From positions 1 through 36,315 of the forward strand of contig CAISPT010000369.1 in the NCBI GenBank assembly GCA_903887455.1: a stretch of DNA of 36,315 bases, written 5' to 3'. A model generated the notes under the pieces. It saw only the letters and a list, made by a program, of their open reading frames with translations, did no database searches and was not told the DNA's origin. The position numbers and the translations under genes were made by a program. Shown here piece after piece: positions 13,295-33,793 of this stretch (the stretch's first letter is position 1; every line of letters begins with the position of its first letter). Origin of the DNA: an uncultured Opitutaceae bacterium (lineage in GTDB: Bacteria > Verrucomicrobiota > Verrucomicrobiia > Opitutales > Opitutaceae).

Positions 13295-13308
13295 AGTGGA
13301 TTTTGGTG

Positions 13309-13761
13309 TCAGGCGCGGATGAAGCCGCCGACCTTCGGATCAGCCTGGAGCTGGGCAAGCTCGGAAGGCGTGGGCACCCTGGGCTTGTCCCTCTCGCGCC
13401 TCACCAGGCACAGGAATCCGAGGGGTTCGCCGGCGGTGGCCCGGAACTGGTGCCAGGTGGCGGGCGGCACGCGGACCAGGTCCCTCATCCCCAGCTCGAA
13501 GACCTCGCCCCCGACCAGGGCGCTCCCGGCCCCGCGGATCACCATGACCGAATGGGCGTGGTCGTGGCGCTCGAGGGTCGAGTGGCCGCCGGGGGCGATC
13601 TCGAAGTACCTGAGCTGGGTGTCGAAGTGCTCCCCGTCGTCGAAGAGGACCTGCCGGGTGATCGCCTTGAAGTGGCTCCCGCTCTCCTCCTTGTAGGCGA
13701 GGAGCGGGACTCCCTCCCATCTGAAGGGGTCAGTCTGCGGGATGTGGGTCTTCTCGCTCAT
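13309..13761 (-). CDS. Cupin protein, candidate methylthio-xylulose-5-phosphate methylsulfurylase
   Basis: A 150-residue single-domain cupin. The metal site is visible as ERHDHAH (His66, His68, His70) and a late histidine in TWHQF (His104); the glutamate of the classical cupin motif is not present. The protein has one cysteine only, Cys118 in the last barrel strands (GFLCLV). The start codon overlaps the stop of the RubisCO-like gene (ATGA, 13761-13758), a sign of translational coupling. In Rhodospirillum rubrum a cupin next to a RubisCO-like protein converts 1-methylthio-D-xylulose 5-phosphate into 1-deoxy-D-xylulose 5-phosphate while releasing the methylthio group, a reaction for which a thiol nucleophile makes sense. 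Assignment here is by fold, context and this cysteine. The alternative is an unrelated sugar-binding or dioxygenase cupin. Confidence 0.72.
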   Translation of the reverse strand: MSEKTHIPQTDPFRWEGVPLLAYKEESGSHFKAITRQVLFDDGEHFDTQLRYFEIAPGGHSTLERHDHAHSVMVIRGAGSALVGGEVFELGMRDLVRVPPATWHQFRATAGEPLGFLCLVRRERDKPRVPTPSELAQLQADPKVGGFIRA

Positions 13762-14870
13762 CGCGTGTACGGGTGCCGCGCGACGGCGTCGACGAACTGC
13801 CTGGCGCGGGAAATCAGGCTGCCCGCATCCGGCGCGTCTAGCAAGCTGCCGCCGATCAGAAGGATGGTCTCCATGCCGTAGAACCCGAGAGCCTCCCCCA
13901 TGTTCGCCACCTTCATCCCGCCGGCGGGGACCGGGAAGCAGGGCGGCGAGCCGCCTGCCGGGGCCGTGAGCGCACCCGCTATCAACCCGCATTCCGCGCG
14001 GCTGTAGCTGAATCGCCCGCCATAGCTCGGGAAGATAACGGCGTCAGCGCCGAAGGCCGGGAACAGCCGTCCAAGAAGCGCGAGCGGGGAAACGCGCTGG
14101 GCGCCGCCGAATGCAGGATGGGCGAGGATCGGCATCCCAAGTTCGGAGGCCAGGTCCACCAGGAACGGGAGCCCGATCAGCATCGGGGACACCATGACAG
14201 CTCCGACACCGGCCTCGCGGGCCAGCCTGGCCTGCAGCAGGACCGTGGCAGGAGAGCCGGTCAGGTTGGGGACGTAGAGCGTCCGCCTTCCGGTGCTCTC
14301 TGCGGCCTCCTCGGTCGCCTTGAGGCAGAGTCGCACCCGCTCGCCGAAAGGACCGAAGGAGTGGTCCGCATGGCCATGGTCGTCCTTGACGATGTCGAGC
14401 CCCCCAAGGGAAAGGTTGAGGCACAACTGCGCGGACTCCTGGTTGGTGAGGCCGATGGGCTTAAGGACCGAGCACGTGAGGGCCCGTCCCGTGGCGCCCA
14501 CCAGCCGGCGGATCCCGGCGATCCCGAACCGGGGCCCCCCGAGCGCTTGCCTGATGCGCGGCGAGAGTCTCACGTCCTCCAGCTGGACGTCGGGCTGCAG
14601 GGAGCAGTTGCCAAAGAGCACGTTAAGGAGCTGGGCGGGGTCGTCACCCGTCGCCAGCTCCGGCTGGGCCAGCGTGACGCGAAAGTCCCCGGGTCCCACC
14701 GCCTCGGTGCCGAGCACCCTGCCGACCAGCCGGTCCCGGACGAAGCTCGAGCGGAGGGCCGACCTCGGCAACTCGACGGTTTGCTCCAGCAGAAGCGCCT
14801 CCACCCGGCCGGCGAGAGCCCCCTCGGGGCTTTGCAGCCGGTAATCCACCTCGATGTGTCCTTCCGTCAT
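13758..14870 (-). CDS. RubisCO-like protein (form IV), candidate methylthioribulose-1-phosphate isomerase
   Basis: A 370-residue protein of the RubisCO large-subunit superfamily. The catalytic-barrel start LKPIGL carries Lys137 (counterpart of RubisCO Lys166). IVKDDHGHAD carries Lys162 (counterpart of the carbamylated Lys191), followed by Asp163, Asp164 and His165 where RubisCO has Asn-Asp-Glu. HPAFGG (251-256), PVPAGGMK (313-320) and IGGSLL (339-344) match the later phosphate-binding strands. The RubisCO loop-6 lysine region is replaced by SYGGRFS, so CO2 fixation is not expected. KDDHG is typical of RubisCO-like proteins that isomerise 5-methylthioribulose 1-phosphate in the MTA-isoprenoid shunt; related proteins decarboxylate 3-oxo-isoapionate 4-phosphate. 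The overlapping cupin and the MetY-type enzymes favour the first role. The ATG at 14870 is chosen because MTEGHIEVDYRL opens the N-terminal domain; upstream sequence in frame (to 15041) overlaps the divergent gene. Confidence 0.83.
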   Translation of the reverse strand: MTEGHIEVDYRLQSPEGALAGRVEALLLEQTVELPRSALRSSFVRDRLVGRVLGTEAVGPGDFRVTLAQPELATGDDPAQLLNVLFGNCSLQPDVQLEDVRLSPRIRQALGGPRFGIAGIRRLVGATGRALTCSVLKPIGLTNQESAQLCLNLSLGGLDIVKDDHGHADHSFGPFGERVRLCLKATEEAAESTGRRTLYVPNLTGSPATVLLQARLAREAGVGAVMVSPMLIGLPFLVDLASELGMPILAHPAFGGAQRVSPLALLGRLFPAFGADAVIFPSYGGRFSYSRAECGLIAGALTAPAGGSPPCFPVPAGGMKVANMGEALGFYGMETILLIGGSLLDAPDAGSLISRARQFVDAVARHPYTR

Positions 14871-14961
14871 TTCGGTCCACGCTACACGCAGCCGCTTCTG
14901 CCGGAAGCAGAAAGGGAGGTTATGACCGATTGATACTTTGCAATGGTTGCCTCCCCCGCCT
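14871..14961. promoter_or_regulatory. Divergent promoter region between RubisCO-like operon and metY
   Basis: The 91-base spacer separates two divergent starts and must hold both promoters. An inverted repeat TTCTGC (14896-14901) / GCAGAA (14907-14912) with a 5-base spacer is present. TTCTGC and TTATGA (14920-14925), 18 bases apart, could serve as -35/-10 for metY, but the match is poor. No S-adenosylmethionine riboswitch fold was recognised. Confidence 0.3.
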
Positions 14962-16278
14962 ATGGCATTGCGCGTTGTGCGCAGCGCAAACGACCCCCGC
15001 AAATTCGGATTCGAGACCCGCATGGTGCACGCCGGGCACATCCCGGACGCCGAGACGGGGGCGAGGGCGGTGCCGATCTACCAAACCACCTCCTTTGTCT
15101 TCGACGACGCCGAGCAGGCGGCGCAGCTCTTCGAGCTGAAGCAGTACGGCAACATCTACTCGCGAATCAGCAACCCGACGACCGCGGTCCTTGAGGAGAG
15201 GCTCGCGTCTCTCGAGTGCGCCACGGGGGCCCTCGCGACGGCTAGCGGCATGGCCGCCCAGCTGGTGACCTTCCTCACGCTCCTCGTCCCGGGCGACGAG
15301 ATCGTCGCGAGCTCCCAGCTCTACGGGGGTTCGATAACGCAGCTTGTCCATACGCTGAAGAAGTTCTCGATTGGCGTCCGGTTCGTCGACCCCACCAAGC
15401 AGGACGAGTGGGAGGCCGCCATCACGCCCCAAACCAAGGCGCTCTACGGCGAGACGATCGGCAACCCCCGGGGCGCCGTGCTCGACATCGCCCGTGTGGC
15501 GGCCCTCGCGGCGTCGAAGGGCATCCCGCTCATTGTCGACAACACCATGGCGACGCCGGCGCTCTGCAGGCCGATCGAGCATGGCGCGACGCTCGTGGTC
15601 CACTCGGCGACCAAGTTCATTGGCGGGCATGGGACCGCGCTCGGCGGGGTGCTGCTCGACTCGGGCAAGTTTGACTTCAGCAGGTACCCGAGCATCGCGG
15701 CGCCATCGCCCGCCTACCACGACCTGAGGTTCTTCGACACCTTCGGGCACTACGGCTTCCTCATGAAGGCGCGGGCTGAGACGCTCCGCGACACCGGTGC
15801 CTGCCTCTCCCCGTTCAACGCCTTCCTCCTGATCCAGGGGCTCGAGACACTCTCCCTGAGGATGGAGCGGCAGTCCGCGTCCGCGCTCAGGGTTGCCAGG
15901 CACCTGGAGGCGCACAGGGAGGTCGCCTGGGTCGCCTACGCTGGCCTTCCGAGCCATCCCGACCACGCTCTCGCAAAGAAGTACCTGCCGGGCGGCGCGG
16001 GAGCCGTGTTCTCGTTCGGGATCAAGGCGGCGTCCGGCCCCGAGGGCCGCGCCCGGGGCCGCAAGTTCATCGAGGGGCTCCAGCTCTTCTCCCACTTGGC
16101 CAACATCGGGGACGTGCGGAGCCTGGTCATCCATCCGGCCTCGACCACCCACCAGCAGCTCTCCGACGAGGAGCTTTCCCGGGGCGGGGTGAGCCCCGAG
16201 CTCATACGCCTCTCGATTGGCCTCGAAAACGTGGAGGACCTCCTATGGGACCTGGACCAGGCGTTGCTTGCGCTGTAA
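14962..16278 (+). CDS. metY: O-acetylhomoserine sulfhydrylase (MetY type)
   Basis: A 438-residue PLP enzyme predicted to make homocysteine or methionine from O-acetylhomoserine and sulfide or methanethiol. Signatures: FETRMVHAGH, VPIYQTTSFVFDD, YGNIYSRISNPTTAVLEERLASLE, SSQLYGGSITQL, VDNTMATP, the PLP lysine Lys218 in HSATKFIGGHGTALGG, SPFNAFLLIQGLETLSLRM, SLVIHPASTTHQQL and IRLSIGLENVEDL. The long form with the insert before SPFNAF is typical of MetY rather than of cystathionine synthases. The ATG at 14962 precedes the conserved N-terminus; codons upstream in frame have no support. It is transcribed divergently from the RubisCO-like/cupin operon. A MetY that accepts methanethiol would close the sulfur loop of an MTA-isoprenoid shunt. 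The following gene overlaps its end by 34 bases. Confidence 0.92.
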   Translation: MALRVVRSANDPRKFGFETRMVHAGHIPDAETGARAVPIYQTTSFVFDDAEQAAQLFELKQYGNIYSRISNPTTAVLEERLASLECATGALATASGMAAQLVTFLTLLVPGDEIVASSQLYGGSITQLVHTLKKFSIGVRFVDPTKQDEWEAAITPQTKALYGETIGNPRGAVLDIARVAALAASKGIPLIVDNTMATPALCRPIEHGATLVVHSATKFIGGHGTALGGVLLDSGKFDFSRYPSIAAPSPAYHDLRFFDTFGHYGFLMKARAETLRDTGACLSPFNAFLLIQGLETLSLRMERQSASALRVARHLEAHREVAWVAYAGLPSHPDHALAKKYLPGGAGAVFSFGIKAASGPEGRARGRKFIEGLQLFSHLANIGDVRSLVIHPASTTHQQLSDEELSRGGVSPELIRLSIGLENVEDLLWDLDQALLAL

Positions 16279-21044: not shown

Positions 21045-21317
21045 ATGCTATCTGAATCCGCCAAGGCACTCGCAAGGCAGGAGGCCGAGGCGGCCAAGTC
21101 GAGGGGACTGCTCTGCACCTCCGAGGAGGCCTGGGCCGCCGCGGGGAAGGGCAAGATCGAGACCCACTGGTCGATCGCCCTGAGGGTGGCGATGCGCTCG
21201 GAGGAGTCAGCCGAGGACCTTTGCGAGTACCTTGAGGAGCACTATCCCCTGAGCCACCTTCACAAGAAGAGGGTGGACCCCAACGCCACCTTCCACGGCG
21301 AGCAGACCCAGATCTAG
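21045..21317 (+). CDS. Small hypothetical protein (90 aa)
   Basis: Not recognised. The 90-residue protein is soluble, with no signal peptide or membrane segment. It has a helical, Ala/Glu-rich N-terminal half (MLSESAKALARQEAEAAKSR) and a charged C-terminus with several histidines (HYPLSHLHKKRVD). The frame has codon use like its neighbours and ends in a TAG that shares CTAG with the stop of the convergent cusA, a layout expected for a real gene. It stands alone between the GH16 gene and cusA. A lineage-restricted protein is most likely. Confidence 0.6.
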   Translation: MLSESAKALARQEAEAAKSRGLLCTSEEAWAAAGKGKIETHWSIALRVAMRSEESAEDLCEYLEEHYPLSHLHKKRVDPNATFHGEQTQI

Positions 21318-24300
21318 GCGGATAGAGGTGCCCCGCCTGCGGCCGTAACCGACCGGCTGCGCCAGAAATAGAAGATGGCCGGATAGACGAGGAGCTCCAT
21401 CAGGGTCGACGTGACGACTCCGCCGACCATGGGTGTCGCGATGCGCTTCATGACGTCGGCCCCGGCCCCGTGGCTCCAGAGTATGGGGAGCAGACCAGCG
21501 ACGATCACGGCGGCCGTCATCGCCTTCGGCCGCACCCGCTTGACCGCTCCGTGGTAGATCGCGTCCCTGAGGTCCATGACGGTCCTCATACGCCCGGAAT
21601 CCCTCCACTCGGCGTAGGCCAGGTCCAGGTACAGGAGCATGACGACACCAGTTTCGGCATCCAGGCCCGCTAGGGCGATGATGCCCACCCAGACCGCGAC
21701 GCTCATGTTGTAGCCAAAGAGGTGTACCATCCAGAAGGCCCCGACAAGGGAGAAGGGCACGGCTAGGAGCACGATCGAGGTCTTCACCCACGACTTCGTG
21801 TTGAGGTAGATGATGAAGACGATGATCAGGAGGGTGAGGGGGATCACCACCAGCAGGCGCTGCTGGGCGCGCTGGAGGTACTCGAACTGGCCGCTCCAGT
21901 ATATACTGTAGCCGGGAGGCACCTGGACCTCCCCGCGGGCGAGCGCGTCGCCGACCACCTTCTGCGCCCGGGCGACGTAGCCCCCGATGTCGGGGTCCTG
22001 AACGTCGACGTAGATCCATGCGTTCGGGACGGCGCCCTCGCTCTTGACCCCCATGGGGGCAGCCACCACCCGCAGCCTCGCCAGTTCGCCGAGCGGCACC
22101 TGGGCCATCCTCTGCGGGGCTCCCGCCATGGCCGCCGAGGCACCCAAGGTCTTCACCGGTATCACGATTTCGCGGAGCGCCTCTAGGTTCTCGCGGTAGT
22201 CCCTGTCATAGCGAAGGACAACGCCGTAGCGCTCCAGCCCCTCGACCGTGGTTGTCAGCGGCATTCCCCCCAGGGCGACCTGGAGCACCTCCTGCACGTC
22301 CCCGACCGTGAGTCCGTAGCGGGCGATCGCGTCCCGATCGATGTCGAACTCGATGTAGTTGCCCCCCCTCACGCGCTCGGCGAAGACGCTCGCGGTCCCC
22401 GGCACCCGGTGCATCACGGCCTCGATCTGGCCGGCGATTCGCTCGAGCTGCGCCAGATCGGGTCCCGCGACCTTTATGCCCACGGGCGTCTTGATGCCGG
22501 TGGCGAGCATGTCGATGCGGGTCCTTATCGGCATGGTCCAGGCATTCGTCAGGCCCGGAAACTGCACAGCGCCATTGAGAGCGGCGACCAGCTCGTCGAG
22601 CGTCCTTCGCCTGTGGGCCACCACGGTCCCGCCCGGCCCCCTCACGTCGACCTCGGGCCACTCGGCCTCGGGCCTGAGCATGATCGTGGTCTCGATCATG
22701 TCCATCGGGGCTGGGTCAGTCGCCGTCTCGGCGCGACCCATCTTCCCGAAAACAGTGCTCACCTCGGGAAACGCTCGGATCACGCGGTCGGTCTGCTGCA
22801 GGACCTCCCTGGCCTTCGTTGGCGAGATTCCAGGGAAGGTGGTAGGCATGTACAGGAGGTCCCCCTCGTAGAGGGGCGGCATGAATTCCGAGCCGAGGCT
22901 CTGGTACGGGAAGGCCCTGCCCATCTTCGCGGCCACGGTCCTCGCGGGCCCTTCGGGCAGGCGCGACACCACGAGGGCGTTCCAAGGGAAGAAAACCCAC
23001 GCCACGATAGCCGCTGCGCTGATCACGACGGCCCACCTGAAGCGGATCACCAGGTCGATCAGCGGGTGGTAGGCCCAGGTGAGCAGGCGGTTGATGGGGT
23101 TCCTCTCTTCGGCGGGGATCCTCCCGCGGATTACCAAGCCCATGAGCACGGGGGCCAGGGTGACTGACAGGATCGCCGAGGCCGCCATCGAGTAGGTCTT
23201 CGTGAAGGCGAGCGGCTTGAACATGCGGCCCTCCTGCGCCTGGAGCGTGAACACGGGCAGGAACGAGACCGTGATTACGAGCAGCGAGTAGAAGAGCGTC
23301 GGCCCAACCTCGATGGATGCGTCGCGGATGATGTCCCAGTGCGGCTTCTTCCCTCCGTCCCGCTCCAGGTGCTTGTGGGCGTTCTCGATCATGATGATCA
23401 CGGCGTCGACCATCGCGCCCACCGCGATGGCGATGCCGCCAAGCGACATGATGTTCGAGCTCAGGCCCTGCGCGTTCATCACGATGAACGACATCAGGAC
23501 CGCCATGGGCAGGATGACGACAGCGACCAGAGCGCTTCGGAAGTGGAGGAGAAAGACCAGGCAGATGGCCGCGACGACGAGGCTCTCCTCGATCAGCTTT
23601 CCCCTGAGCGTGTCGACGGCGCGGTCGATGAGGGCTGTCCTGTCATAGACCACCGTGTAGCTCACGTCGCTCGGCAGGCTCTTCATCGCCTGGTCGAGCC
23701 GGGCCTTGACGGCCCCGATCACCTGGCGGGTGTCGACGCCGTAGCGCACGACCACGATTCCCCCGACGGTCTCGCCGTCCCCGTTGAGTTCGGCGACGCC
23801 GCGCCTCATGTCGGGGCCCAGTTGAACGTTGGCCACCTCCCCGAGGAGGATCGGCGTGCCGGCGGGACCGCGGCCGACCGCGATCTTTCGAAAATCCTCG
23901 ACCCCTTTCGCGTAGCCGAGAACCCGGAGAATAAACTCCTTCTCGCCCATCTCGACCGACCGCCCGCCAACCTCGCCGTTGCTCTTCTGCACCGCCATGG
24001 CGATGTCGCTGATCGACAGGTTGTAGGCGTGGAGACGGTGGGGGTCTACCGTGATCTGGTACTGCTTGGCGTAGCCCCCGACCGACGCGACCTCGGCGAC
24101 GCCCTCGATCCCCGAAAGCTGGTAGCGCAGGAACCAGTCCTGCATCGACCGGAGCTCCGCGAGGTCCCGGCTCTTCGAGTTGAGGGAGTACATGAAGGCC
24201 CAGCCGACGCCTGTGGCGTCGGGGCCTAGCCGAGGGGTCGCCTCCCTTGGAAGAGCCGAGGAGAGACCGCTCAAGTACTCGAGCACCCGGCTCCTCGCCC

Positions 24301-24613
24301 AGTAGGGGTCGGTCCCGTCCGCGAAGATCACGTAGACGAACGAGAACCCGTAGAAGGAGTACCCGCGGACGACCTTTGCCGAGGGGACTGAAAGCATCTT
24401 CGTCGTGATCGGGTAGGTCACCTGGTCCTGCACGATCTGGGGGGCCTGCCCCGGCCACTCCGTGTAGATGATCACCTGGGTGTCCGACAGGTCGGGAATC
24501 GCGTCGAGGGGGGTCCGCTTCAGGGCGTAGACGCCGCCGGCGGCGAGCGCCACGGCACCGATAATGACCAGGAACCTGTTCCTGAGAGAAAAGTCGATGA
24601 GGCGGGCGAGCAT
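21314..24613 (-). CDS. cusA: Copper/silver efflux RND pump, CusA type
   Basis: The 1099-residue inner-membrane proton antiporter of a tripartite Cu+/Ag+ efflux system. The helix-4 motif GAMVDAVIIMIENAHK carries the proton-relay Asp403 and Glu410 and is of the CusA (monovalent-cation, HME4) type rather than CzcA. The methionines known to carry the ion in CusA have counterparts in LLYMPTTFPG, APMDMIETT and RIDMLATGIKTPVGIK. The N-terminus LARLIDFSLRNRFLVIIG and the halves with large periplasmic loops are as expected. Last gene of a cusC-cusB-cusA operon (14-base gap from cusB). Its expression is probably set by the divergent ECF sigma module. Confidence 0.96.
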   Translation of the reverse strand: MLARLIDFSLRNRFLVIIGAVALAAGGVYALKRTPLDAIPDLSDTQVIIYTEWPGQAPQIVQDQVTYPITTKMLSVPSAKVVRGYSFYGFSFVYVIFADGTDPYWARSRVLEYLSGLSSALPREATPRLGPDATGVGWAFMYSLNSKSRDLAELRSMQDWFLRYQLSGIEGVAEVASVGGYAKQYQITVDPHRLHAYNLSISDIAMAVQKSNGEVGGRSVEMGEKEFILRVLGYAKGVEDFRKIAVGRGPAGTPILLGEVANVQLGPDMRRGVAELNGDGETVGGIVVVRYGVDTRQVIGAVKARLDQAMKSLPSDVSYTVVYDRTALIDRAVDTLRGKLIEESLVVAAICLVFLLHFRSALVAVVILPMAVLMSFIVMNAQGLSSNIMSLGGIAIAVGAMVDAVIIMIENAHKHLERDGGKKPHWDIIRDASIEVGPTLFYSLLVITVSFLPVFTLQAQEGRMFKPLAFTKTYSMAASAILSVTLAPVLMGLVIRGRIPAEERNPINRLLTWAYHPLIDLVIRFRWAVVISAAAIVAWVFFPWNALVVSRLPEGPARTVAAKMGRAFPYQSLGSEFMPPLYEGDLLYMPTTFPGISPTKAREVLQQTDRVIRAFPEVSTVFGKMGRAETATDPAPMDMIETTIMLRPEAEWPEVDVRGPGGTVVAHRRRTLDELVAALNGAVQFPGLTNAWTMPIRTRIDMLATGIKTPVGIKVAGPDLAQLERIAGQIEAVMHRVPGTASVFAERVRGGNYIEFDIDRDAIARYGLTVGDVQEVLQVALGGMPLTTTVEGLERYGVVLRYDRDYRENLEALREIVIPVKTLGASAAMAGAPQRMAQVPLGELARLRVVAAPMGVKSEGAVPNAWIYVDVQDPDIGGYVARAQKVVGDALARGEVQVPPGYSIYWSGQFEYLQRAQQRLLVVIPLTLLIIVFIIYLNTKSWVKTSIVLLAVPFSLVGAFWMVHLFGYNMSVAVWVGIIALAGLDAETGVVMLLYLDLAYAEWRDSGRMRTVMDLRDAIYHGAVKRVRPKAMTAAVIVAGLLPILWSHGAGADVMKRIATPMVGGVVTSTLMELLVYPAIFYFWRSRSVTAAGGAPLSA

Positions 24614-24627
24614 CGGGGTGTGCGTCT

Positions 24628-25950
24628 CTACCTGTGCTCGATCTGCTCCGCGGGGGCCTGAGTGCGGGCGAGCATCTTCTGGATGGCGTCCCTGAGCTGG
24701 CTCTCGGAATCGAGCATGAACTGCCCCGATACGACGACATTCTCGCCCCCGGCGAGCCCGGTGAGGACCTGGTAGAGGTTACCCTGGGAGCGTACCCCCA
24801 GGGCGATCTCCCGCGGCAGGAAGGTGCCGTCGGGTCGGGCGATGAAGACTGTGTTGCGTTCGCCAGTCCTAAGGACGGCGAGGTCCGGAACAAGAACCGC
24901 GGAGTCGGCCAGCTTCGCCACGAAGCGCACGTCGACGAACATCCCCGGCCGCAGGCTCCCGTCGGGGTTCGGGATCACGATCCGCGCCGTAGCCGTCCGG
25001 GTGTCCTCCTCGACCCGGGGCAGGACCGCTTCCACCCGGCCCTCGATCAGACGCTCTGGGCCGTAGGTCACCCGGACCGTTGCCGCCTGGCCCGCCTTCA
25101 CGAAGGGAAGGTCCTGCTCGTAGACCTGGGCGACCACCCAGACCGTTGTTAGGTCCGCCATCTTGTAGAGGGTCTCTCCGGCCTTCGCCATTTGCCCGGC
25201 CACGGCCATCTTCTCGATCACGGTCCCGTCGGACGTCGCGCGAAGGACGAGCGAGCGGGGGGCCTCACCGGTGCGCGCCACCGCGTCGATGTCCGCGGCG
25301 GGAACGTCCAGGAGTTCCAGGCGCGAGCGGGTTGAGCGGGTCAGCGGCCCCCCTGCGGGGCCCTCGGATCTGAGGGCGACGAGATAGTTGAGTTCCGCAT
25401 TCCTCAAGTCCGGCGAATAGATCTCAAGCAGGGGGTCGCCGCGCCTGACCGTGGTCCAGGTCGCGTCGACTTCGAGGTGCTCAACCCATCCGTCGTACTT
25501 GGTGGTGACGTCGCGCAGGCCGCGTTCGTCAAAGGCGACCGAGCCGACTGCGCGGAGCTCGCGCAGGACCGGGCCGCGAGTGACCCGCTCCGTCTTTAGG
25601 TTCATCCGCTGGACGGTGGCCGAGTCGATCGAGATGGCCTCCGTCTGTTCCTCCTCCTCGCCGTAGACGGGGATCATGTCCATCCCCATCGAGTCCTTGC
25701 CCGGCTTCGGGCTCACCTCGCCTGGGTTCATCGAGGACTTGTAGTACTTCACCTCGTGGGCGTGCCTGCCGGTGGGGGCTCCATTGGCCCGCACGGGAAC
25801 AAGCGTCATTCCGCAGATCGGGCAGTTGCCAGGCTCCCGGCTGATCACCTGGGGGTGCATTCCGCAGGTGTAGAGCTGGTCGGCTGCGGTGAGGCCGGTG
25901 TACAGCAACAGGCCTAGGGCGGCTAGAATGGGGCGGAGGACGGCGTTCAT
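24628..25950 (-). CDS. cusB: Copper/silver efflux periplasmic adaptor, CusB type
   Basis: A 440-residue membrane fusion protein that links the RND pump to the outer-membrane channel and hands over metal. After a short signal/anchor sequence it has a heavy-metal-binding domain LYTCGMHPQVISREPGNCP followed by ICGM (two Cys-x-x-type sites). A second motif, KSSMNPGEVSPKPGKDSMGM, leads into MDMIPVYGEE. Next come the Cus adaptor stretches MNLKTERVTRG, VAFDERG and TTKYDGWVEHLEVD, the barrel-sandwich element GDPLLEIYSPDL, and the beta-barrel PFVKAGQAATVRV. The domain set points to Cu+ or Ag+. It lies 15 bases after cusC and 14 before cusA. Confidence 0.95.
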   Translation of the reverse strand: MNAVLRPILAALGLLLYTGLTAADQLYTCGMHPQVISREPGNCPICGMTLVPVRANGAPTGRHAHEVKYYKSSMNPGEVSPKPGKDSMGMDMIPVYGEEEEQTEAISIDSATVQRMNLKTERVTRGPVLRELRAVGSVAFDERGLRDVTTKYDGWVEHLEVDATWTTVRRGDPLLEIYSPDLRNAELNYLVALRSEGPAGGPLTRSTRSRLELLDVPAADIDAVARTGEAPRSLVLRATSDGTVIEKMAVAGQMAKAGETLYKMADLTTVWVVAQVYEQDLPFVKAGQAATVRVTYGPERLIEGRVEAVLPRVEEDTRTATARIVIPNPDGSLRPGMFVDVRFVAKLADSAVLVPDLAVLRTGERNTVFIARPDGTFLPREIALGVRSQGNLYQVLTGLAGGENVVVSGQFMLDSESQLRDAIQKMLARTQAPAEQIEHR

Positions 25951-25965: not shown

Positions 25966-27324
25966 TCAGGAGTTCGCGGGATTCAGGGGAAGGGGCGCCC
26001 CGGCGGGGGCGGCCTCCGCGGTGAGCAGCAGCAGGTCCGTGACTGCGGCCTCGCGGTCGCGGAGGGCCGAGGCGCGTTCGGCCCTCATCGCGTTGGCCAT
26101 GGCCTGCGTCTCGGGAATCATCGCTGCGCCGGACGGGCCCGATTCTGCGGAGGCCTCGGCCGAGGCGAGCGCCTGGGCGAGGTTCGGCAGTCCGTCCCGG
26201 TCGATGAAGGCGATCATCCGGTCCGACTCGTGGACCATGTGGATCATGCGGGCCAGTTCCGCGGCCACCTCGAGCTCCCCTGCGCTGTACCGGGCGGCGC
26301 TTGCGTCGCGCCTGGCCTGGGCCGCGGCCACCAGCGACGCGATCTTGTCCCTCCAGACGGGGAGATCCACGGTCGCCACGGGCCTGAAGAGCGTGGGGTT
26401 TGAGCGCACGTCGACCATGGCCCCCAGCGCGAAATCGGGCTTGCCGGCGCGCCGTGCGGACGCAATGCCCGCCTCCGCCATTTCGACCATCTCGCGCATG
26501 CGCGCCAGGCCCGGGTTGGAGGCCGTGATCCGGCGCCAGAGGGCGTCCTCGGCGGGCACGGGAGTTAAGGCGAGGGCGGCGTCCGGCCACGCGGGGTCGG
26601 GCTCCGAGGGCCCGATCCCTAGCGCGTACTTGAGGCGGGACCTGGCCTCCAGCCGGCGGTGCTCGAGGTCGAACTTCTCGCTCTCCGCCTGGGCTAGGTC
26701 ATTCTTCAGGCGGATCTGGATCGAAAGGGAGCCCATGGCAGAGCCGGTCTCGTAGCCGGCTGCGGCGATCGAGAGCTCGCGCGCGATGATCCCCTCGGAC
26801 TCCGCCTTAAGGCGGATGGCCTCCCCGATGTAGGCGAGCTCGATCCACGCCTTTCGGGCCTCGGCGGCCGCGGAAGTGACCGCCTCCTCGTAGGCTCGGC
26901 GGGAGACCGAGGCCTCTGCGAGTGCCACCTCGCCCATCGCCTGCCTCTTTCCGGAGCCTGGGAAGGCGAACATGAGGCCTGGCATCAGGCTGGAGAGCGT
27001 GCGGGTGATGTCGGCCTGGAAGACGAACTGGGGGTCGGGAAGCGAGCGCGCCTGGACGACGTCCTCGACGCCGGCCCTCCAGTCGTAGTAGGCGGCGGCC
27101 ACGGAGGGGTGGTTGAGAACGGCATAGAGGACGAACGCCTCCTGCGGGCTATCCGCGCGGAGGACGGGCAGGGGCGGGCGGCCTTCCCTTGCCAGGAGCG
27201 AGGCGCCTGTCTGCTGCATCTGCCGGCGGGCCGAGGCTTCGGTCCGTTGGGCCGTGCCCGCGCAGCCGGCAAGCCCTGCGGCGAGCAGGAGGAGCAGGGA
27301 AGCGGAGAGGGGCTTGCGGCACAT
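25966..27324 (-). CDS. cusC: Outer-membrane efflux lipoprotein (TolC/CusC family)
   Basis: A 452-residue outer-membrane factor forming the exit duct of the pump. The N-terminus is a lipoprotein signal with lipobox LAGC, lipidated at Cys21. The mature protein has the OEP alpha-helical repeats: AVLNHPSVAAAYYDWRAGVEDVVQARSLPDPQ in the first half and ASNPGLARMREMVEMAEAGIASARRAGKPDFALGAMVD in the second. Ala/Glu-rich coiled-coil helices lie between them. First gene of cusCBA. The start is 186 bases from the divergent sigma-module gene, with paired promoter-like sites between. A CusC symbol is given by context; the family itself is not metal-specific. Confidence 0.88.
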   Translation of the reverse strand: MCRKPLSASLLLLLAAGLAGCAGTAQRTEASARRQMQQTGASLLAREGRPPLPVLRADSPQEAFVLYAVLNHPSVAAAYYDWRAGVEDVVQARSLPDPQFVFQADITRTLSSLMPGLMFAFPGSGKRQAMGEVALAEASVSRRAYEEAVTSAAAEARKAWIELAYIGEAIRLKAESEGIIARELSIAAAGYETGSAMGSLSIQIRLKNDLAQAESEKFDLEHRRLEARSRLKYALGIGPSEPDPAWPDAALALTPVPAEDALWRRITASNPGLARMREMVEMAEAGIASARRAGKPDFALGAMVDVRSNPTLFRPVATVDLPVWRDKIASLVAAAQARRDASAARYSAGELEVAAELARMIHMVHESDRMIAFIDRDGLPNLAQALASAEASAESGPSGAAMIPETQAMANAMRAERASALRDREAAVTDLLLLTAEAAPAGAPLPLNPANS

Positions 27325-27411: not shown

Positions 27412-27441
27412 GTCATACACCCGGCCGGCGCCTTTCCCTCA
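27412..27441 (-). promoter_or_regulatory. Candidate ECF-type promoter for cusCBA
   Basis: On the minus strand TGAGGG (27441-27436), an 18-base spacer and TATGAC (27417-27412) point at cusC. The same arrangement occurs in mirror image toward the sigma-module genes. The leader to the cusC ATG would be about 80 bases. Recognition by the adjacent ECF sigma factor is inferred. Confidence 0.55.
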
Positions 27442-27465
27442 CCCCTTTCCTCTATTATCTTGGGA

Positions 27466-27495
27466 TGAGGGATTTTCGCGGCGCCGGTGTATAAC
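27466..27495 (+). promoter_or_regulatory. Candidate ECF-type promoter for the sensor/sigma operon
   Basis: TGAGGG (27466-27471), an 18-base spacer and TATAAC (27490-27495) point at the gene starting at 27511. Spacing and both boxes match the minus-strand copy facing cusC, and GGCGCCGG..TGTAT within the spacer is also shared. Transcription would start within about 10 bases of the ATG, so the message would be almost leaderless. Confidence 0.55.
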
Positions 27496-27510
27496 CTTCC
27501 AACAAGCACC

Positions 27511-27813
27511 ATGAATTCCTCCCGAGAAACCCTGAGCGACACCCTCGCGAGCTGGCGCGTCGCGCCGACGTCCGATCCCGCGTTCCGGAGCCACGTCTGG
27601 GAACGCATCCGGAAGCGCCCGGACACGCCCTGGACCGACTACCTGCGGGCGCATGCGGCCGCGCTCTCCCTCGTCTCGGTCCTTGCTCTAGGCGCCGCCG
27701 CCGTGGGCGGTGGCGTGATCGCACGCTCCAGGGTTCGCGCCGACCGGGAGGCCATAGTGATGACCTACCTGGTCGACATCGATCCGCGTGTCCAGGCAGC
27801 CCAGAAGCCATGA
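27511..27813 (+). CDS. Small single-span membrane protein, candidate anti-sigma factor (CnrY-like position)
   Basis: A 100-residue protein with a hydrophilic N-terminal 50 residues (SSRETLSDTLASWRVAPTSD then PAFRSHVWERIRKRP), one membrane span (about 52-74) and a short periplasmic tail. This topology fits a minimal anti-sigma factor whose cytoplasmic part binds the sigma factor. Similar SWRV/DPxFRxxVW stretches occur in small membrane proteins next to ECF sigma genes, as far as I recall. It is the first gene of a three-gene row in the cnrY-cnrX-cnrH order, and its stop overlaps the next start (ATGA). Sequence similarity to CnrY itself is not evident; the role is assigned by position and topology. 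ATG 27511 is preferred over an upstream alternative start that would lie in the promoter-like site. Confidence 0.65.
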   Translation: MNSSRETLSDTLASWRVAPTSDPAFRSHVWERIRKRPDTPWTDYLRAHAAALSLVSVLALGAAAVGGGVIARSRVRADREAIVMTYLVDIDPRVQAAQKP

Positions 27814-28286
27814 GGAATCTGCTGATCTCCGCAGGGCTTATCGCCGCGCTCGCCTGCGTCGCCGCGTACCTGGGATTCCGCGCCAACAGCGACCCGGCGC
27901 TCCACGAGGCGGTCGCCAAAGGCGACACGATGGAGTGGCTGAGGACCGACTTCCACTTGAGCGCAGAGCAGCTGGCAGCCGTCCGCAGGCTCCACGACTC
28001 ATATTCCGGGACCTGCGACGAGCACTGCAGGATGATCCAGGAGGCTACGCAGGCTCGCCAGGCGCTCGAGGCCGCCCACGGGGACCCTGCCTCCATCGCC
28101 GCGGCCAACGAGCGGATCCAGCGGATGCGCGCAATGTGCGAGGGCGCGATCCGGGTCCACGTGCAGAAAGTGGCCGCGCTCATGGCGCCCGAGGACGCGA
28201 AACGCTACCTCGCCCTTGTTCTCCCAAAGATCTCAAAATTCGACCACAAAGGGGCGCCCGACCTGCGCCTGAACTCCTCGTCCTAA
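27810..28286 (+). CDS. Periplasmic heavy-metal sensor (CnrX/metal-resistance family)
   Basis: A 158-residue protein with an N-terminal membrane anchor (MRNLLISAGLIAALACVAAY) and a helical periplasmic domain of the CnrX/Spy-like metal-resistance fold. The hairpin has DFHLSAEQLAAVRRLHDSYSGTCDEHC and later RMRAMCEGAIRVHVQKVAALMAPEDAKRYL. Candidate metal ligands are Cys69, His72, Cys73, Met109 and Cys110, a soft, thiol/thioether-rich set that suits Cu+ or Ag+ better than the Ni/Co site of CnrX. It overlaps the upstream gene by ATGA and ends 4 bases before the sigma gene. The expected role is to sense periplasmic metal and release the sigma factor through the small membrane protein. Confidence 0.78.
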   Translation: MRNLLISAGLIAALACVAAYLGFRANSDPALHEAVAKGDTMEWLRTDFHLSAEQLAAVRRLHDSYSGTCDEHCRMIQEATQARQALEAAHGDPASIAAANERIQRMRAMCEGAIRVHVQKVAALMAPEDAKRYLALVLPKISKFDHKGAPDLRLNSSS

Positions 28287-28290
28287 GCCC

Positions 28291-28872
28291 ATGGAACCTG
28301 AGGCCGGCTCCGGCCCGAGTGACGAGGAACTGATGGCCCGCCTAAAAGGGGGCGATGAGGCCGCGCTTGCCCCGCTCATGCAGCGATGGGAGGTCCCGGT
28401 GAAGCGCTTCATCTTCAGGATCGTCGGGAGCGTCGCCGAGTCCGAGGACCTCGCGCAGGACGTCTTCGCCAAGGTCTTCACGAAGCGGGCGACCTACCGC
28501 GAGGGAGCCAGGTTCTCGTCGTGGTGCTTCTCGATCGCCGCGAACCAAGCGAAGAACAGGCTCAGGTGGTGGCGCCACCGTCCGCAAGTCTCGCTGTCCT
28601 CGTGGACCAACCTCGGTGGCGACGGCGTGGACGAGACGCTCGTGGGCCAGCCGGCCTCGCTGTCGGCGATGCGGGCTGAAAGGATAGGGGAGGTGCAGGC
28701 GGCCGTAGCCTCGCTGCCCTTCGACCTTAGGACGGCGCTCGTGCTCTTCGAGTACGAGGGCCAGTCCATGGAAGAGATCGCTGCTGCGCTAGAGTGCACG
28801 CCGAAGGCGGTCGAAAACCGACTGTACCGGGCGCGTGGCAGGCTGCGGCTTGCGCTCGTGGCCGAGGCCTAG
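28291..28872 (+). CDS. ECF sigma factor (RNA polymerase sigma-70 family), CnrH-like position
   Basis: A 193-residue group 4 sigma factor. Region 2 covers about residues 20-90 (DEAALAPLMQRWEVPVKRFI, SEDLAQDVFAKVF, then FSSWCFSIAANQAKNRLR). Region 4 covers about 130-186 (ASLPFDLRTALVLFEYEGQS, then the helix-turn-helix MEEIAAALECTPKAVENRLYRARGRL). It directs RNA polymerase to a small set of promoters, here probably the two mirror-image sites at 27412-27495, controlling cusCBA and its own operon. It starts 4 bases after the sensor gene. The linker between regions 2 and 4 is somewhat long (RHRPQVSLSSWTNLGGDGVD). It converges with a hybrid histidine kinase. Confidence 0.92.
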   Translation: MEPEAGSGPSDEELMARLKGGDEAALAPLMQRWEVPVKRFIFRIVGSVAESEDLAQDVFAKVFTKRATYREGARFSSWCFSIAANQAKNRLRWWRHRPQVSLSSWTNLGGDGVDETLVGQPASLSAMRAERIGEVQAAVASLPFDLRTALVLFEYEGQSMEEIAAALECTPKAVENRLYRARGRLRLALVAEA

Positions 28873-28918: not shown

Positions 28919-31900
28919 TTAGGTGTGCTCCCGTAGAAGACCAAGCAGCTTGTCCTCTGAGTAAGGCTTGGGAAGTAAGTGAAGTATACCCGCTTCTTTG
29001 AAAACCGACTCCGAACTTGTGGTGCCAATTTCCGTGACCAACCCCGTTGAAAGGACAATGGGCACGTTGGGTGCAAGCCCATGGATCACCAACGCCACGG
29101 CCTCGCCGTTCATATCCGGCATCATGCGGTCCAGTAGGACGAACCGGATATCGCCTGCGTTGGCCCTGAACGCGCTGATCGCCATTTCGCCGTTCTCCGC
29201 GGTGACGGCCTTGAATCCATGTTTCTCGACCACGCTCCTGGCAGTCTCTAGGACCAGAGGCTCGTCGTCCACGATCAGCACCATCTTGCCATTCCCCTCA
29301 ACTGGAACGCAGGTTTCAGTCGCAGTTGGCGCAGGTTCCCTGCCATGGACAAAGGGCAGGAACACGCGGAAGACTGATCCGATTCCAACCTGCGACTCCA
29401 CGCGGATAAACCCGCCGTGAGACTTTACGATTCCGTGTACTGTCGATAGCCCAAGTCCCGTGCCCTTTCCCCGGGGCTTGGTTGAGTTGATGGGTTCGAA
29501 GATGCGGGGCAGCACGTCCGGCGGTATACCTGCGCCCGTGTCGGAGATCGCTATGACCACGAAATCCGCCTGGCCTCCCCCTGGCTCGGGGCCGACCAAC
29601 CGGCTGGGGGCCTTTTCGTTGCTGAGCTCGAAGGTGAGCTTGCCGCCGTTGGGCATAGCGTCGCGTGCATTCACCGCGAGGTTAAGGAGGACCTGGTGGA
29701 TCTGGGTCGGGTCCGCCAGGACCGTGTCCATCGCCCGTTCCACGCTGCAGGATATGGCGATGTTTCGCGGGAAAGTCTCGGACATTAGGCGAACCATCTC
29801 CTTCACAAGCCGTCCAATGCTGATGGGCGTGTGCGGCCCTTCCAATCCACGGGAAAAGGCGAGCACTTGCTTGACGATTTCGCTGCCGCGCTGAGCGCAT
29901 TGGTGGACTATCGCGAGGACCCGCTCCTCTGCGGGGTACCTGGTGCGAAGGAGCTCCATCGAGAGCATTATGGCGGAGAGGATGTTGTTCAGATCGTGCG
30001 CTATGCCGCTTGCGAGCAAACCAATGCCTTCGAGTCGCTGAGTCTCATTGAGCTGCGCTTGCAGCATACGCTGTTCTGTTACGTCCAGCGTGACGGCCAC
30101 AAAATGGGTGAGGACGCCGGACGAGTCGAATACCGGCGTGATAGTTGACTCTTGGGTGTAGAACGTTCCGTCCTTGCGCACGTTGACGAATTCGCCGGAC
30201 CAGCTTTGGCCTGCTCGCAAGTAAGCCCACATTTCTGTGTACACTGCGGCCGGGGTGCGCCCTGACTTTAGCACCCTAGGGTTCTTGCCCTGGACCTCTT
30301 CCAGCCGATAACCCGTCGTTCGCGAGAAAGCAGGATTCACCCACTCGATGGCGCCTTTTGCATCGGTGATCATCACGTTGTTGACCGCCGCTTCAAGAGC
30401 AGCGCTCTGCAACCGGATTCTTTGTTCATTCTTGCGATTCTCCGCCTCGGTTTTGACGCGAAGGGTCACGTCTTCGAAGACGCCGAGGACGCCGTACACC
30501 TCACCCCGCCCGTCCCTCAGCGGTACTTCGGAGGTGTTCACCCACCTCGTCTCTGAGTTCGCTAAATGGACTTCCTCCACGTAATGAAGCATAGCCTCTT
30601 GCCGACGGATCACGGCCTTGTCGTCTTCGCGGTATCTCTCAGCCTCGGACCTTGGCATGGGAAGGTCGAGGTCGGTCAAACCGATCAATTCTTCCGGCAA
30701 GCGGAGGCCTACGAATCGGGCGTAGGTTTTATTGCAACCCAGATACCTCCCGTCCAAGTCCTTCCAAAACACGGCCTGCGGGGCCGTGTTAAGAACGTTC
30801 TTAAGCATCTCCTCGCTTTTGTACCTGAGAGACTGGCCTTCGATGACCTCGAGCGCAAACGACAAGTCGGCGGCGGTCTCGTTGAGTAGAGCGGACTCCG
30901 CAGGTTGGAAGAAGTCCTTTACCGATGAATATACCGTGAGGACCCCCGCGATTGACCCGCCGGAGCGCAAGGGTAGGGCGATACTTGAGCGAATTCCTGC
31001 GTTGATGGCGTGCGAGTGCCAGGCTAAAGTGGTCGGGTCCGATAAGAAGTCGTTGCAGATGCAGGTCACCCCTGATTGGAAACACCTTCCTGTGGGCCCT
31101 CCTCCAAAAGGCGATTTCGGATCTGTGGAAATCTCGACTTTAGAAATATAGTCTACGCAGTCCCCTTCAACTGCGTCGGGGCAAATACGATTGGTGACAG
31201 GATCTCGCAACCCCACCCATGCGAGCATGTAGCCACCTTCTCTGACGAGAATACGGCAAACTTCCGTCAACAGCTTGTGCCTGTCCCGTATGTGTATCAT
31301 CGCGTTATTCACGCGGGAAATTGTGGTGTAAACCTTGTTTAGTCGTGTGATCTCCTGTCTGTTAGCGCGCGTCGCGGTGAAATCCCGGAAGGTTGCTATT
31401 ACCCAAGCCGGCTTCGATTTTGGATTCCCCTCGATGGGTTGGGTATTGATCGAGAGCCATCTCCGGGATCCGTCAGGTCTAACGATGCCCATCACTACAT
31501 GACTGGCAGGTACTCCAGTACTGAGGGTTTGGACCATTGGATGTGTTTCACCGGGGAAGAGGCTGCCGTCATCGTGCACGGCTCCCCAAATGGGCTCCAA
31601 CGAGCTGCGGCCAACCAATTCTTTCGCGGTACGTCCCAGAAATTCTTGGGCCGCCTTGTTTGCAGAGACGATCTTTCCTTCCGCATCCTGCACCACGACG
31701 CCTTCAGCCATCGATTCGAGAACGCTCGCGAATTTGTGCTCACTTGCTCTGAGGGCCTCCTCAGCAGCCTTGCGCTCGGAAACATCGCGAATGATGGAAA
31801 GCACGTGGACCTTGCCCGCTAGAACGATCGACTTGGCACTGACCTCCACTTTGAAGGCCGAACCGTCTTTTTTGCAGTGAGCGGACTCGAATGAAACGCC

Positions 31901-33793
31901 ATCTTTGTCTGTGGCTTGTAAGAATTGCTTGTTGACCAAATCGTGGGATTGAACAGCCCGGAGATCGTTAGCAGAGAGTTGCCGAAATTCCTCAAGTGAG
32001 TAGCCGTACGTCTTTAGTGCGCTATTGTTGGCGTCGGTGACGCGCTTGTCCGAGTCGAAGACGATGATGGCATCCCGAGCGTAGCGCATAATCATCGCTA
32101 GGCGTTCGGTGGCTGCTCGGAGCAATCTCTCTGACTTGAGGCTGGCCTCTAGCTGTCGTTTCGTATTCGCGTCCTGCCAACTCCGGACGATCAGAATGGT
32201 GAGAAATGCTACGAGGATGAATGTAAGCAAAAGTGCGCCTGTAAATTGGCGAGCAGGTGCGAAGGCCTCAGCCTGATCGACCTTTGCAATTAGGACCCAA
32301 GGCGAATCGGGGACGTGCATCGCATAGCCAAAGGTGGGTACACCGCGGTAATCTAGCGCTTCGATGAGGCCGCGCGTGTCGGATCTCATCGCGATCGCGG
32401 CAAGGAGCTTGGGATCAGCGAGGGGTTTTCGCAGGGTGAAGGCGGGAATTGCGCCCAGGCGAAGCTCGTTCAAATAGAGCAGCGCGTCGCCTTCGCGTCG
32501 GACGAGAAGTTCCTCGGCTGTTGTTTGTTCAGATGGTCGCTTTCCCAACTTAACAAATAGCTGGGATTCGGCGTCGACCGTGAGCATGACGACGCCTACT
32601 CGCGCCCGTGCTTCCGCGTCGTCGATGGGTGCCACAAAATGCATTTCGACGCGGCCGTCTTCAGACCTGTGGAGATCCTCGGTGGCCACGGCATTCGTGG
32701 TGGCAATGGTAGTTTGAGTGGCTTGGCTGGGCGGGGTCTCCCAGCCTGCCCCTTTGGGCGTCCCCCAGACGGCCCTGTAGTTCTTGTCGAAGAGGACGAT
32801 CCTGCGGTAATGGTATGCCTTTAGAACCTTGGCCAAATAGCGGTCGATTTCAGCCGCGTCGGGGCCTCCTCCCGGTGTCGATGCGATGAATCCCGCTATG
32901 CTTGGGTTTGATGCGAGAGCCATAGCATCTCCGATCCTGCCCTGGCGCCAATTCGTTATCTCTTGAACCTTAATCTCAGGAATTGCCCTCAATTCACCGC
33001 TCAGGGTGTTGCGGATGCGGGTTTGCTCCGCTCTCAAGAAGAAGAAGACGATGAGTATCCCGACTACCCCGAATACCGTGAATCCTATAGCTTGAGTGCG
33101 CGGCGCGGCGTTGATACTTGGTGCGGAAATTGAATCCTCCTGTGGGTGGGATCCGGCAAACTCGGTGCACCAATTCGAAAGGACGGTGCCGAGGTTAAAA
33201 ATGAAAAACCCGACTCCGGACAAGCATGCCATCGGAATCGATAGGGTGCTAAATCCAACCGGGCTTTGGGCGAGATAGCCTAGAAGGACAAAGGAGGCTA
33301 TAAACAACGCAACCGCCCCAGCCAACACGGAGAGGAGCCTAATAGCATTGCCTCGAGTTGTTCGGTGCAGCTCCGGCAGCGCCACTGCCGCAGCGGTAAG
33401 GATGAAGGCGCACGCCGTGAGGGGCGCCATGCGCCCTCCTTCAAAGGTGCCGTGGGTGGTGTCTATCGATACTTCCCACAGGTCCCAGGGAGCTGAAAAC
33501 TCGGTGACAGTGCGTAGGAGTTCAACGGCACCCGCGGCTGTTGCGAGGAAACTGCAGGCCATGACGAGCAACCGTCGGGCTCCTGAGGGTGAAAGCAATT
33601 GCCTCGCGCCGCAACCGATGCCCAGGGTGACAAAGAGAGCCGCTGGGATCGGTGCCATTGGAATCCCTGCGCCGCCCCAAGCCGCCAGTTTCCAATGACC
33701 CGTCATCCAAGACGCCAGCGCGAATATCCCGAGCCCAGCAGACAAACACGATGTGACGGCCGCCGCTCTTCGAATGGGGTTAAATATCTTCAT
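28919..33793 (-). CDS. Large hybrid sensor histidine kinase (4 PAS, GAF, HisKA, HATPase, receiver)
   Basis: A 1624-residue membrane sensor. Order: a hydrophobic block of about seven helices (about 12-253), an extracytoplasmic region (about 255-505), another span (508-530), PAS 1 (from 560), PAS 2 (from 685), GAF (from 830), PAS 3 (from 990) and PAS 4 (from 1130). Then come HisKA with phospho-acceptor His1266 in SGIAHDLNNILS, HATPase with NLAVNARDAM, SDTGAGIP and GKGTGLGLSTVHG, and a receiver domain with phospho-acceptor Asp1555 in FVLLDRMMPDMNG. It lacks an HPt domain and no partner regulator is adjacent, so the phosphorelay partner is elsewhere. GC content and codon choice are clearly lower than in all neighbours, suggesting acquisition or recent expansion. 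The signal sensed is unknown. Confidence 0.92.
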   Translation of the reverse strand: MKIFNPIRRAAAVTSCLSAGLGIFALASWMTGHWKLAAWGGAGIPMAPIPAALFVTLGIGCGARQLLSPSGARRLLVMACSFLATAAGAVELLRTVTEFSAPWDLWEVSIDTTHGTFEGGRMAPLTACAFILTAAAVALPELHRTTRGNAIRLLSVLAGAVALFIASFVLLGYLAQSPVGFSTLSIPMACLSGVGFFIFNLGTVLSNWCTEFAGSHPQEDSISAPSINAAPRTQAIGFTVFGVVGILIVFFFLRAEQTRIRNTLSGELRAIPEIKVQEITNWRQGRIGDAMALASNPSIAGFIASTPGGGPDAAEIDRYLAKVLKAYHYRRIVLFDKNYRAVWGTPKGAGWETPPSQATQTTIATTNAVATEDLHRSEDGRVEMHFVAPIDDAEARARVGVVMLTVDAESQLFVKLGKRPSEQTTAEELLVRREGDALLYLNELRLGAIPAFTLRKPLADPKLLAAIAMRSDTRGLIEALDYRGVPTFGYAMHVPDSPWVLIAKVDQAEAFAPARQFTGALLLTFILVAFLTILIVRSWQDANTKRQLEASLKSERLLRAATERLAMIMRYARDAIIVFDSDKRVTDANNSALKTYGYSLEEFRQLSANDLRAVQSHDLVNKQFLQATDKDGVSFESAHCKKDGSAFKVEVSAKSIVLAGKVHVLSIIRDVSERKAAEEALRASEHKFASVLESMAEGVVVQDAEGKIVSANKAAQEFLGRTAKELVGRSSLEPIWGAVHDDGSLFPGETHPMVQTLSTGVPASHVVMGIVRPDGSRRWLSINTQPIEGNPKSKPAWVIATFRDFTATRANRQEITRLNKVYTTISRVNNAMIHIRDRHKLLTEVCRILVREGGYMLAWVGLRDPVTNRICPDAVEGDCVDYISKVEISTDPKSPFGGGPTGRCFQSGVTCICNDFLSDPTTLAWHSHAINAGIRSSIALPLRSGGSIAGVLTVYSSVKDFFQPAESALLNETAADLSFALEVIEGQSLRYKSEEMLKNVLNTAPQAVFWKDLDGRYLGCNKTYARFVGLRLPEELIGLTDLDLPMPRSEAERYREDDKAVIRRQEAMLHYVEEVHLANSETRWVNTSEVPLRDGRGEVYGVLGVFEDVTLRVKTEAENRKNEQRIRLQSAALEAAVNNVMITDAKGAIEWVNPAFSRTTGYRLEEVQGKNPRVLKSGRTPAAVYTEMWAYLRAGQSWSGEFVNVRKDGTFYTQESTITPVFDSSGVLTHFVAVTLDVTEQRMLQAQLNETQRLEGIGLLASGIAHDLNNILSAIMLSMELLRTRYPAEERVLAIVHQCAQRGSEIVKQVLAFSRGLEGPHTPISIGRLVKEMVRLMSETFPRNIAISCSVERAMDTVLADPTQIHQVLLNLAVNARDAMPNGGKLTFELSNEKAPSRLVGPEPGGGQADFVVIAISDTGAGIPPDVLPRIFEPINSTKPRGKGTGLGLSTVHGIVKSHGGFIRVESQVGIGSVFRVFLPFVHGREPAPTATETCVPVEGNGKMVLIVDDEPLVLETARSVVEKHGFKAVTAENGEMAISAFRANAGDIRFVLLDRMMPDMNGEAVALVIHGLAPNVPIVLSTGLVTEIGTTSSESVFKEAGILHLLPKPYSEDKLLGLLREHT

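Follow-up and report, generated by a model that had tools for sequence, protein, structure and literature searches.

Divergent candidate promoters of an ECF sigma factor between a CusCBA-type efflux operon and a CnrYXH-like operon in an uncultured Opitutaceae bacterium

Two mirror-image elements with the same internal spacing lie between a CusCBA-type efflux operon and a CnrYXH-like operon in the DNA stretch analyzed here (36,315 nt; hereafter, the window), and this paired feature is in all likelihood real and functional. We consider it highly probable (roughly 0.9) that the two elements are promoters, pointing away from each other, for a single dedicated ECF sigma factor, H, whose gene comes third in the operon under one of them. 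The best explanation of the arrangement would be that, as in the Cnr system of Cupriavidus, an autoregulated ECF sigma factor controls a CusCBA-type pump; relative to Cnr, this variant has another promoter sequence and a divergent layout. The features concerned are as follows.

21314–24613, minus strand: CusA/CzcA-family RND pump (TIGR00914)
24628–25950, minus strand: cusB-like periplasmic adaptor with a heavy-metal-binding domain (HMBD)
25966–27324, minus strand: cusC-like outer-membrane efflux protein (OEP)
27441–27412, minus strand: candidate promoter facing the efflux operon, TGAGGGAAAGGCGCCGGCCGGGTGTATGAC; –35 box TGAGGG (27441–27436), 18-bp spacer, –10 box TATGAC (27417–27412)
27442–27465, no strand: segment between the –35 boxes, 24 bp, 54% A+T
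27466–27495, plus strand: candidate promoter facing the Y-X-sigma operon, TGAGGGATTTTCGCGGCGCCGGTGTATAAC; –35 box TGAGGG (27466–27471) followed by ATTT, 18-bp spacer, –10 box TATAAC (27490–27495)
27496–27510, plus strand: leader of Y from the –10 box to the ATG, 15 nt, no Shine-Dalgarno sequence
27511–27813, plus strand: Y, 100 aa, one predicted transmembrane (TM) segment; putative membrane anti-sigma factor in a CnrY-like position
27810–28286, plus strand: X, 158 aa, periplasmic metal-sensor-like protein (Metal_resist, PF13801) with a predicted CnrX fold
28291–28872, plus strand: H, ECF sigma factor, 193 aa, regions 2 and 4

Two mirror-image elements in the window

The first-pass annotation, made from the letters of the window, had described two mirror promoters at these positions, and a pattern scan bore out its coordinates, boxes and 18-bp spacing: TGAGGG-N18-TATRAC matched the window exactly twice, with zero matches expected and none in 100 dinucleotide shuffles. 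The genome scan proposed there, run over the whole 3.34-Mb assembly, returned the two window sites only, even with one mismatch tolerated (reversed control pattern at the same tolerance: four matches). On these counts the symmetry lies beyond chance, as had been claimed, and the relatives described below make the case stronger than it was at first. Two sequences that had been noted as shared by both spacers fared less well. GGCGCCGG does occur in both, 5 bp out of register (at an offset of 9 from the T in one site vs. 14 in the other); it has six occurrences in the window and is not conserved, and with a spacer center carrying 0.04–0.5 bits per column in relatives, we rejected it as part of the motif. 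GTGTAT survived in part: it overlaps the –10 box, and GTG alone belongs to the spacer, where it is conserved.

Orthologous Y-X-H operons were located within the same order and genus, and the DNA before them was inspected. The first sites of the matrix were picked by eye from these relatives; in full it comprised 34 columns and 22 sites, and it was retrained each time minus the genome under test. With the window's own genome left out of training, the sigma-operon site was the best match in the window (score 31.5) and the cusC site the second best (16.2). The latter value falls inside the chance range, as shuffling 16.3 kb 100 times gave maxima of up to 17.5. The case for the cusC site is therefore made by where it lies, a position kept in relatives, by the evidence of those relatives and by its boxes, both the –35 and the –10 matching perfectly. 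The conserved TTT directly behind the –35 box, which the first-pass annotation had not mentioned, is present in the sigma-operon promoter and replaced in the cusC promoter, which reads AAAG after the box vs. ATTT in the consensus. The missing TTT and the low matrix score would suit a cusC-side site that is a decayed copy, with H reading its own operon's promoter only and the pump driven otherwise. We regard this as quite improbable, given the perfect boxes, the conserved position and the efflux-side sites, often strong ones, that congeners and most relatives possess.

Conservation of the element in related genomes

Of the 20 loci in a first set of relatives, 18 had their best matrix match just before Y (or the efflux gene), including L059 and L066, whose sites were weak and scored no better than chance; the matrix scan found no such site in two distant orthologous loci (L070 and L071). 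As a guard against circularity, a second set of 30 loci was fetched afterwards by X-protein similarity. All were from Opitutaceae, Opitutae or Verrucomicrobia MAGs, bar one record labeled Akkermansia. Some may share a species with training genomes, and exactly matching training sites were dropped from the matrix; three of the 30, congeners of the training set, likewise had their own sites removed. Scored against a matrix free of the locus's own sites, all 30 loci had their best match in the Y/efflux intergenic region, and the top two matches formed the mirror pair in 29, with an 18-bp spacer every time and scores of about 11–37, usually separated by a wide gap from the next match.

The refined element is [T/C]GAGGG-ATTT-N10-GGTG-TATnAY. 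Information content is concentrated in the –35 block with its TTT (positions 1–10) and in GG(T/G)(G/T)TA, whereas mid-spacer positions are near random; the columns conserved among relatives are [TC]GAGGG-A-TTT and GG(T/G)(G/T)-TA. Judged from the sequences, conserved boxes around randomized spacers are the signature of a two-block promoter and not of inherited similarity. Short motifs do recur in a GC-rich genome and the two window sites have 21 of 30 bases in common, as might result from coincidence or from a recent, functionless inverted duplication. Against such an origin, which we deem vanishingly improbable, stand the expectation of zero matches and the persistence of the pair, with randomized spacers, in relatives whose X proteins are only 36–64% identical.

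Distances between the two units proved far less constant than those within them. The –35 boxes are 25 bp apart in the window (T to T) and mostly 18–25 bp in its clade, 8–12 bp in a second clade and 43–96 bp at some loci. Elsewhere, the units are arranged in tandem or stand alone before other genes: in L072, a second locus in one of the genomes, the cusCBA and YXH operons lie in tandem, each with its own site, the sites being 7.4 kb apart. These observations bear on whether the boxes could instead be the inverted-repeat operator of a separate dimeric regulator flanked by ordinary RpoD promoters. Mirror-image sites would fit such an operator, and TATAAC/TATAAT resembles a σ70 –10 box, but a TTGACA-like –35 is absent, the sigma factor is the only regulator conserved beside the sites, and the distance between units is anywhere between 8 and 96 bp (T to T), against a constant 18 bp inside each unit. 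On the last ground we rejected the dimer operator, and a separate regulator appears unlikely overall.

Promoters of the adjacent ECF sigma factor, as the first-pass annotation had proposed, are the reading supported by the fixed spacer, the variable distance between units, the co-occurrence with the sensor operon and the –10 variants described below, which track the –10-recognizing region of the sigma factor. The segment between the –35 boxes is AT-rich in relatives (mean 66% A+T vs. 36% for the loci) and AAATTTT-like in the compact second clade; a shared UP-like element in this middle segment is a reasonable guess.

Across 252 family genomes, the strict pattern YGAGKGATT-N11-GGTGTAT had 38 matches in 24 genomes, and its reverse had none. 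The X protein is carried by 146 of the 252, including all 24 motif-bearing genomes. By coordinates, 30 of the 38 matches adjoin X, four precede another Y-like gene and three precede secreted Cys-rich proteins, so that 37 stand before a secreted Cys-rich protein or one of the two operons (sensor or efflux). The single unexplained match, in G211 (C59:24257–24283; L164:2758), has no evident link to the system. Used to look for more regulon members in the genome of the window itself, the refined pattern returned the known site only.

The CnrYXH-like operon and its sigma factor

The operon next to the sites is CnrYXH-like in that it encodes a small single-TM protein, a periplasmic sensor of CnrX fold and an ECF sigma factor, an order kept in relatives. 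Y belongs to a conserved family (A2/A6). Pfam and NCBIfam searches assigned it to no family and detected no named anti-sigma family, and a profile search against PDB sequences found neither CnrY nor another relative; CnrY-type proteins are short and divergent. In X, CxxHC (C69, H72, C73), C110, H117 and M125 are conserved, which suggests a metal site. Its predicted structure (mean pLDDT 88) retrieved chains of CnrX, the nickel/cobalt sensor of Cupriavidus, as all of the top 12 Foldseek matches in the PDB (probability 0.94–1.00, TM-score to target 0.54–0.74, E 0.04–0.3). VIA-align gave 2.8 Å over 103 residues and a Z of 9.4, a level that unrelated helical proteins also reach. As middling Z-scores are common among helical folds, the argument for CnrX is carried by the Foldseek ranking and the gene order. 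At the sequence level, a profile search of X against the PDB did not find CnrX, which emerged from the fold comparison alone; its best matches were to bicaudal D, probably coiled-coil matches, and were rejected. For H, the domain matches over cut-off (PF04542, PF08281, TIGR02937) cover sigma regions 2 and 4 only.

Several features of H relate to the motif. In E. coli, the –35 element of σE (RpoE-type) promoters is GGAACTT. The promoters described here share with that type the two-block build and a T-run directly behind the –35, and the sigma factors are of the same superfamily; they differ in having GAGGG instead of GGAAC. The –35-reading recognition helix differs likewise, being (T/S)xKAVE(N/T)R in these sigma factors vs. 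CPVGTVRSR in σE (KAVEN/T vs. GTVRS). The difference falls at the R171/S172 positions, which fits a non-GGAAC –35. As to the –10 region, sigma factors with FS[TSP]W in the L3/2.4 region go with a G before TAT in 17 of 17 loci and those with FRPW with a T in eight of nine, and the two promoters of one locus mostly share the same –10 subtype. This covariation is a correlation along two clades and not proof of binding, since it follows those clades and does not represent many independent events. The element offers a testable recognition sequence, with natural –10 variants that track sigma factor sequence, for an ECF sigma lineage of Verrucomicrobiota (Opitutaceae and kin) whose promoter we did not find described in the literature searched, and it may serve as an orthogonal promoter/sigma pair.

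Among known systems, CnrYXH/CnrCBA of Cupriavidus metallidurans (and NccYXH) is the closest, with a membrane protein, a periplasmic sensor and an ECF sigma factor encoded in one operon in Y-X-H order. CnrH drives cnrYp, for the regulators, and cnrCp, for the RND pump, with leaders of 24 and 25 nt (PMC9045368). In the system described here, one conserved promoter element stands before the regulatory operon and also before the RND pump operon, both of which H would drive; the leader of Y is predicted to be short, and X has the predicted CnrX fold. Unlike in Cnr, the pump operon is divergent with the two promoters back to back, the –35 is TGAGGG-ATTT, the pump is of CusCBA/CzcA type and its adaptor carries an HMBD, CxxHC and C110 are conserved in X, and Y lacks a sequence match to CnrY in the PDB.

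CorE of Myxococcus xanthus is a copper-dependent ECF sigma factor with CorE-type proteins also in Opitutus; these have a C-terminal Cys-rich domain with four invariant Cys and no linked anti-sigma factor (PMC3107203). H resembles CorE, which controls metal homeostasis genes, in being an ECF sigma factor, and differs in its linkage to a membrane protein and a sensor. As H ends in RLRLALVAEA, with no Cys after region 4, we rejected it as a CorE-type copper sigma factor. Literature searches, whether for a published ECF motif containing TGAGGG or for a Verrucomicrobiota metal system with an ECF sigma factor, returned nothing relevant, a result that does not establish absence from the literature.

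On the Cnr-type reading, the membrane protein Y would keep H at the membrane until the periplasmic sensor X binds excess metal and Y lets H go. H with RNA polymerase would then read TGAGGG-ATTT-N10-GGTG-TATnAY both ways and raise the pump (cusCBA) as well as its own Y-X-H operon, and the extra Y and X would bring back the off state once the metal is gone. We infer not only binding of these sites by H but also the anti-sigma role of Y, the metal and the start sites. The sensed metal is probably soft, such as Cu or Ag, as suggested by the conserved Cys/His/Met in X together with the CusCBA-type pump.

Leader, layout and accompanying genes

The start site of the Y operon is expected at about 27501–27503. 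An ATG in the Y frame lies 11–19 nt past the –10 box, with no Shine-Dalgarno sequence, in 29 of 31 loci (median 14 nt); in the remaining two, one ATG is at 21 nt and one start was not resolved. This short spacing indirectly supports the earlier suggestion of a nearly leaderless sigma-operon transcript and makes a nearly leaderless Y message a conserved property. More speculatively, the back-to-back layout might itself exert control: with a single short AT-rich stretch between them, the two holoenzymes would compete with or assist each other, which would set how much pump is made relative to sensor and anti-sigma factor. We consider this rather doubtful; if true, it would amount to an unusual compact metal switch, in which a Y message with almost no leader and no Shine-Dalgarno sequence is combined with a novel ECF promoter specificity.

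In most relatives (L106, L094, L102, L109–L122), the first efflux-side gene encodes a small secreted Cys-rich protein (YPLxxCVVSGExLG...FCCxxCxxxFxxDPAKYLKKLD) with a weak YHS match. Distant solitary copies of this YHS-like gene (L169:12138 and L165:4938) carry the same promoter; a single-sequence search, a weak test, did not detect the protein in the window's own genome. A second family of tiny secreted proteins (about 70–80 aa, ...FAGPGxxYW..., with a C-rich C terminus) has the same promoter at L165:3834 and on the efflux side of L099, L104, L107 and L111, and gave no convincing family match. The predicted regulon is small, comprising the pump, the sensor operon and secreted Cys-rich YHS-like proteins, and is expected in many genomes of mostly uncultivated bacteria.

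At four loci (L062, L063, L066 and L067), Y-X-H operons are unlinked to cus genes and lie near htpG or aldehyde-dehydrogenase-like genes; the –10 is TATCAY in three of them, and L066 is without a clear site. Within the window, a hybrid histidine kinase of 1624 aa (28919–33793), whose domains include GAF, a receiver and several PAS, converges on the sigma operon. Further away, at 12152–16278, a RuBisCO-like protein (13758–15041, minus strand) and a cupin (13309–13992, minus strand) are encoded between two Cys/Met PLP enzymes, a cluster reminiscent of MTA-isoprenoid-type methionine salvage.
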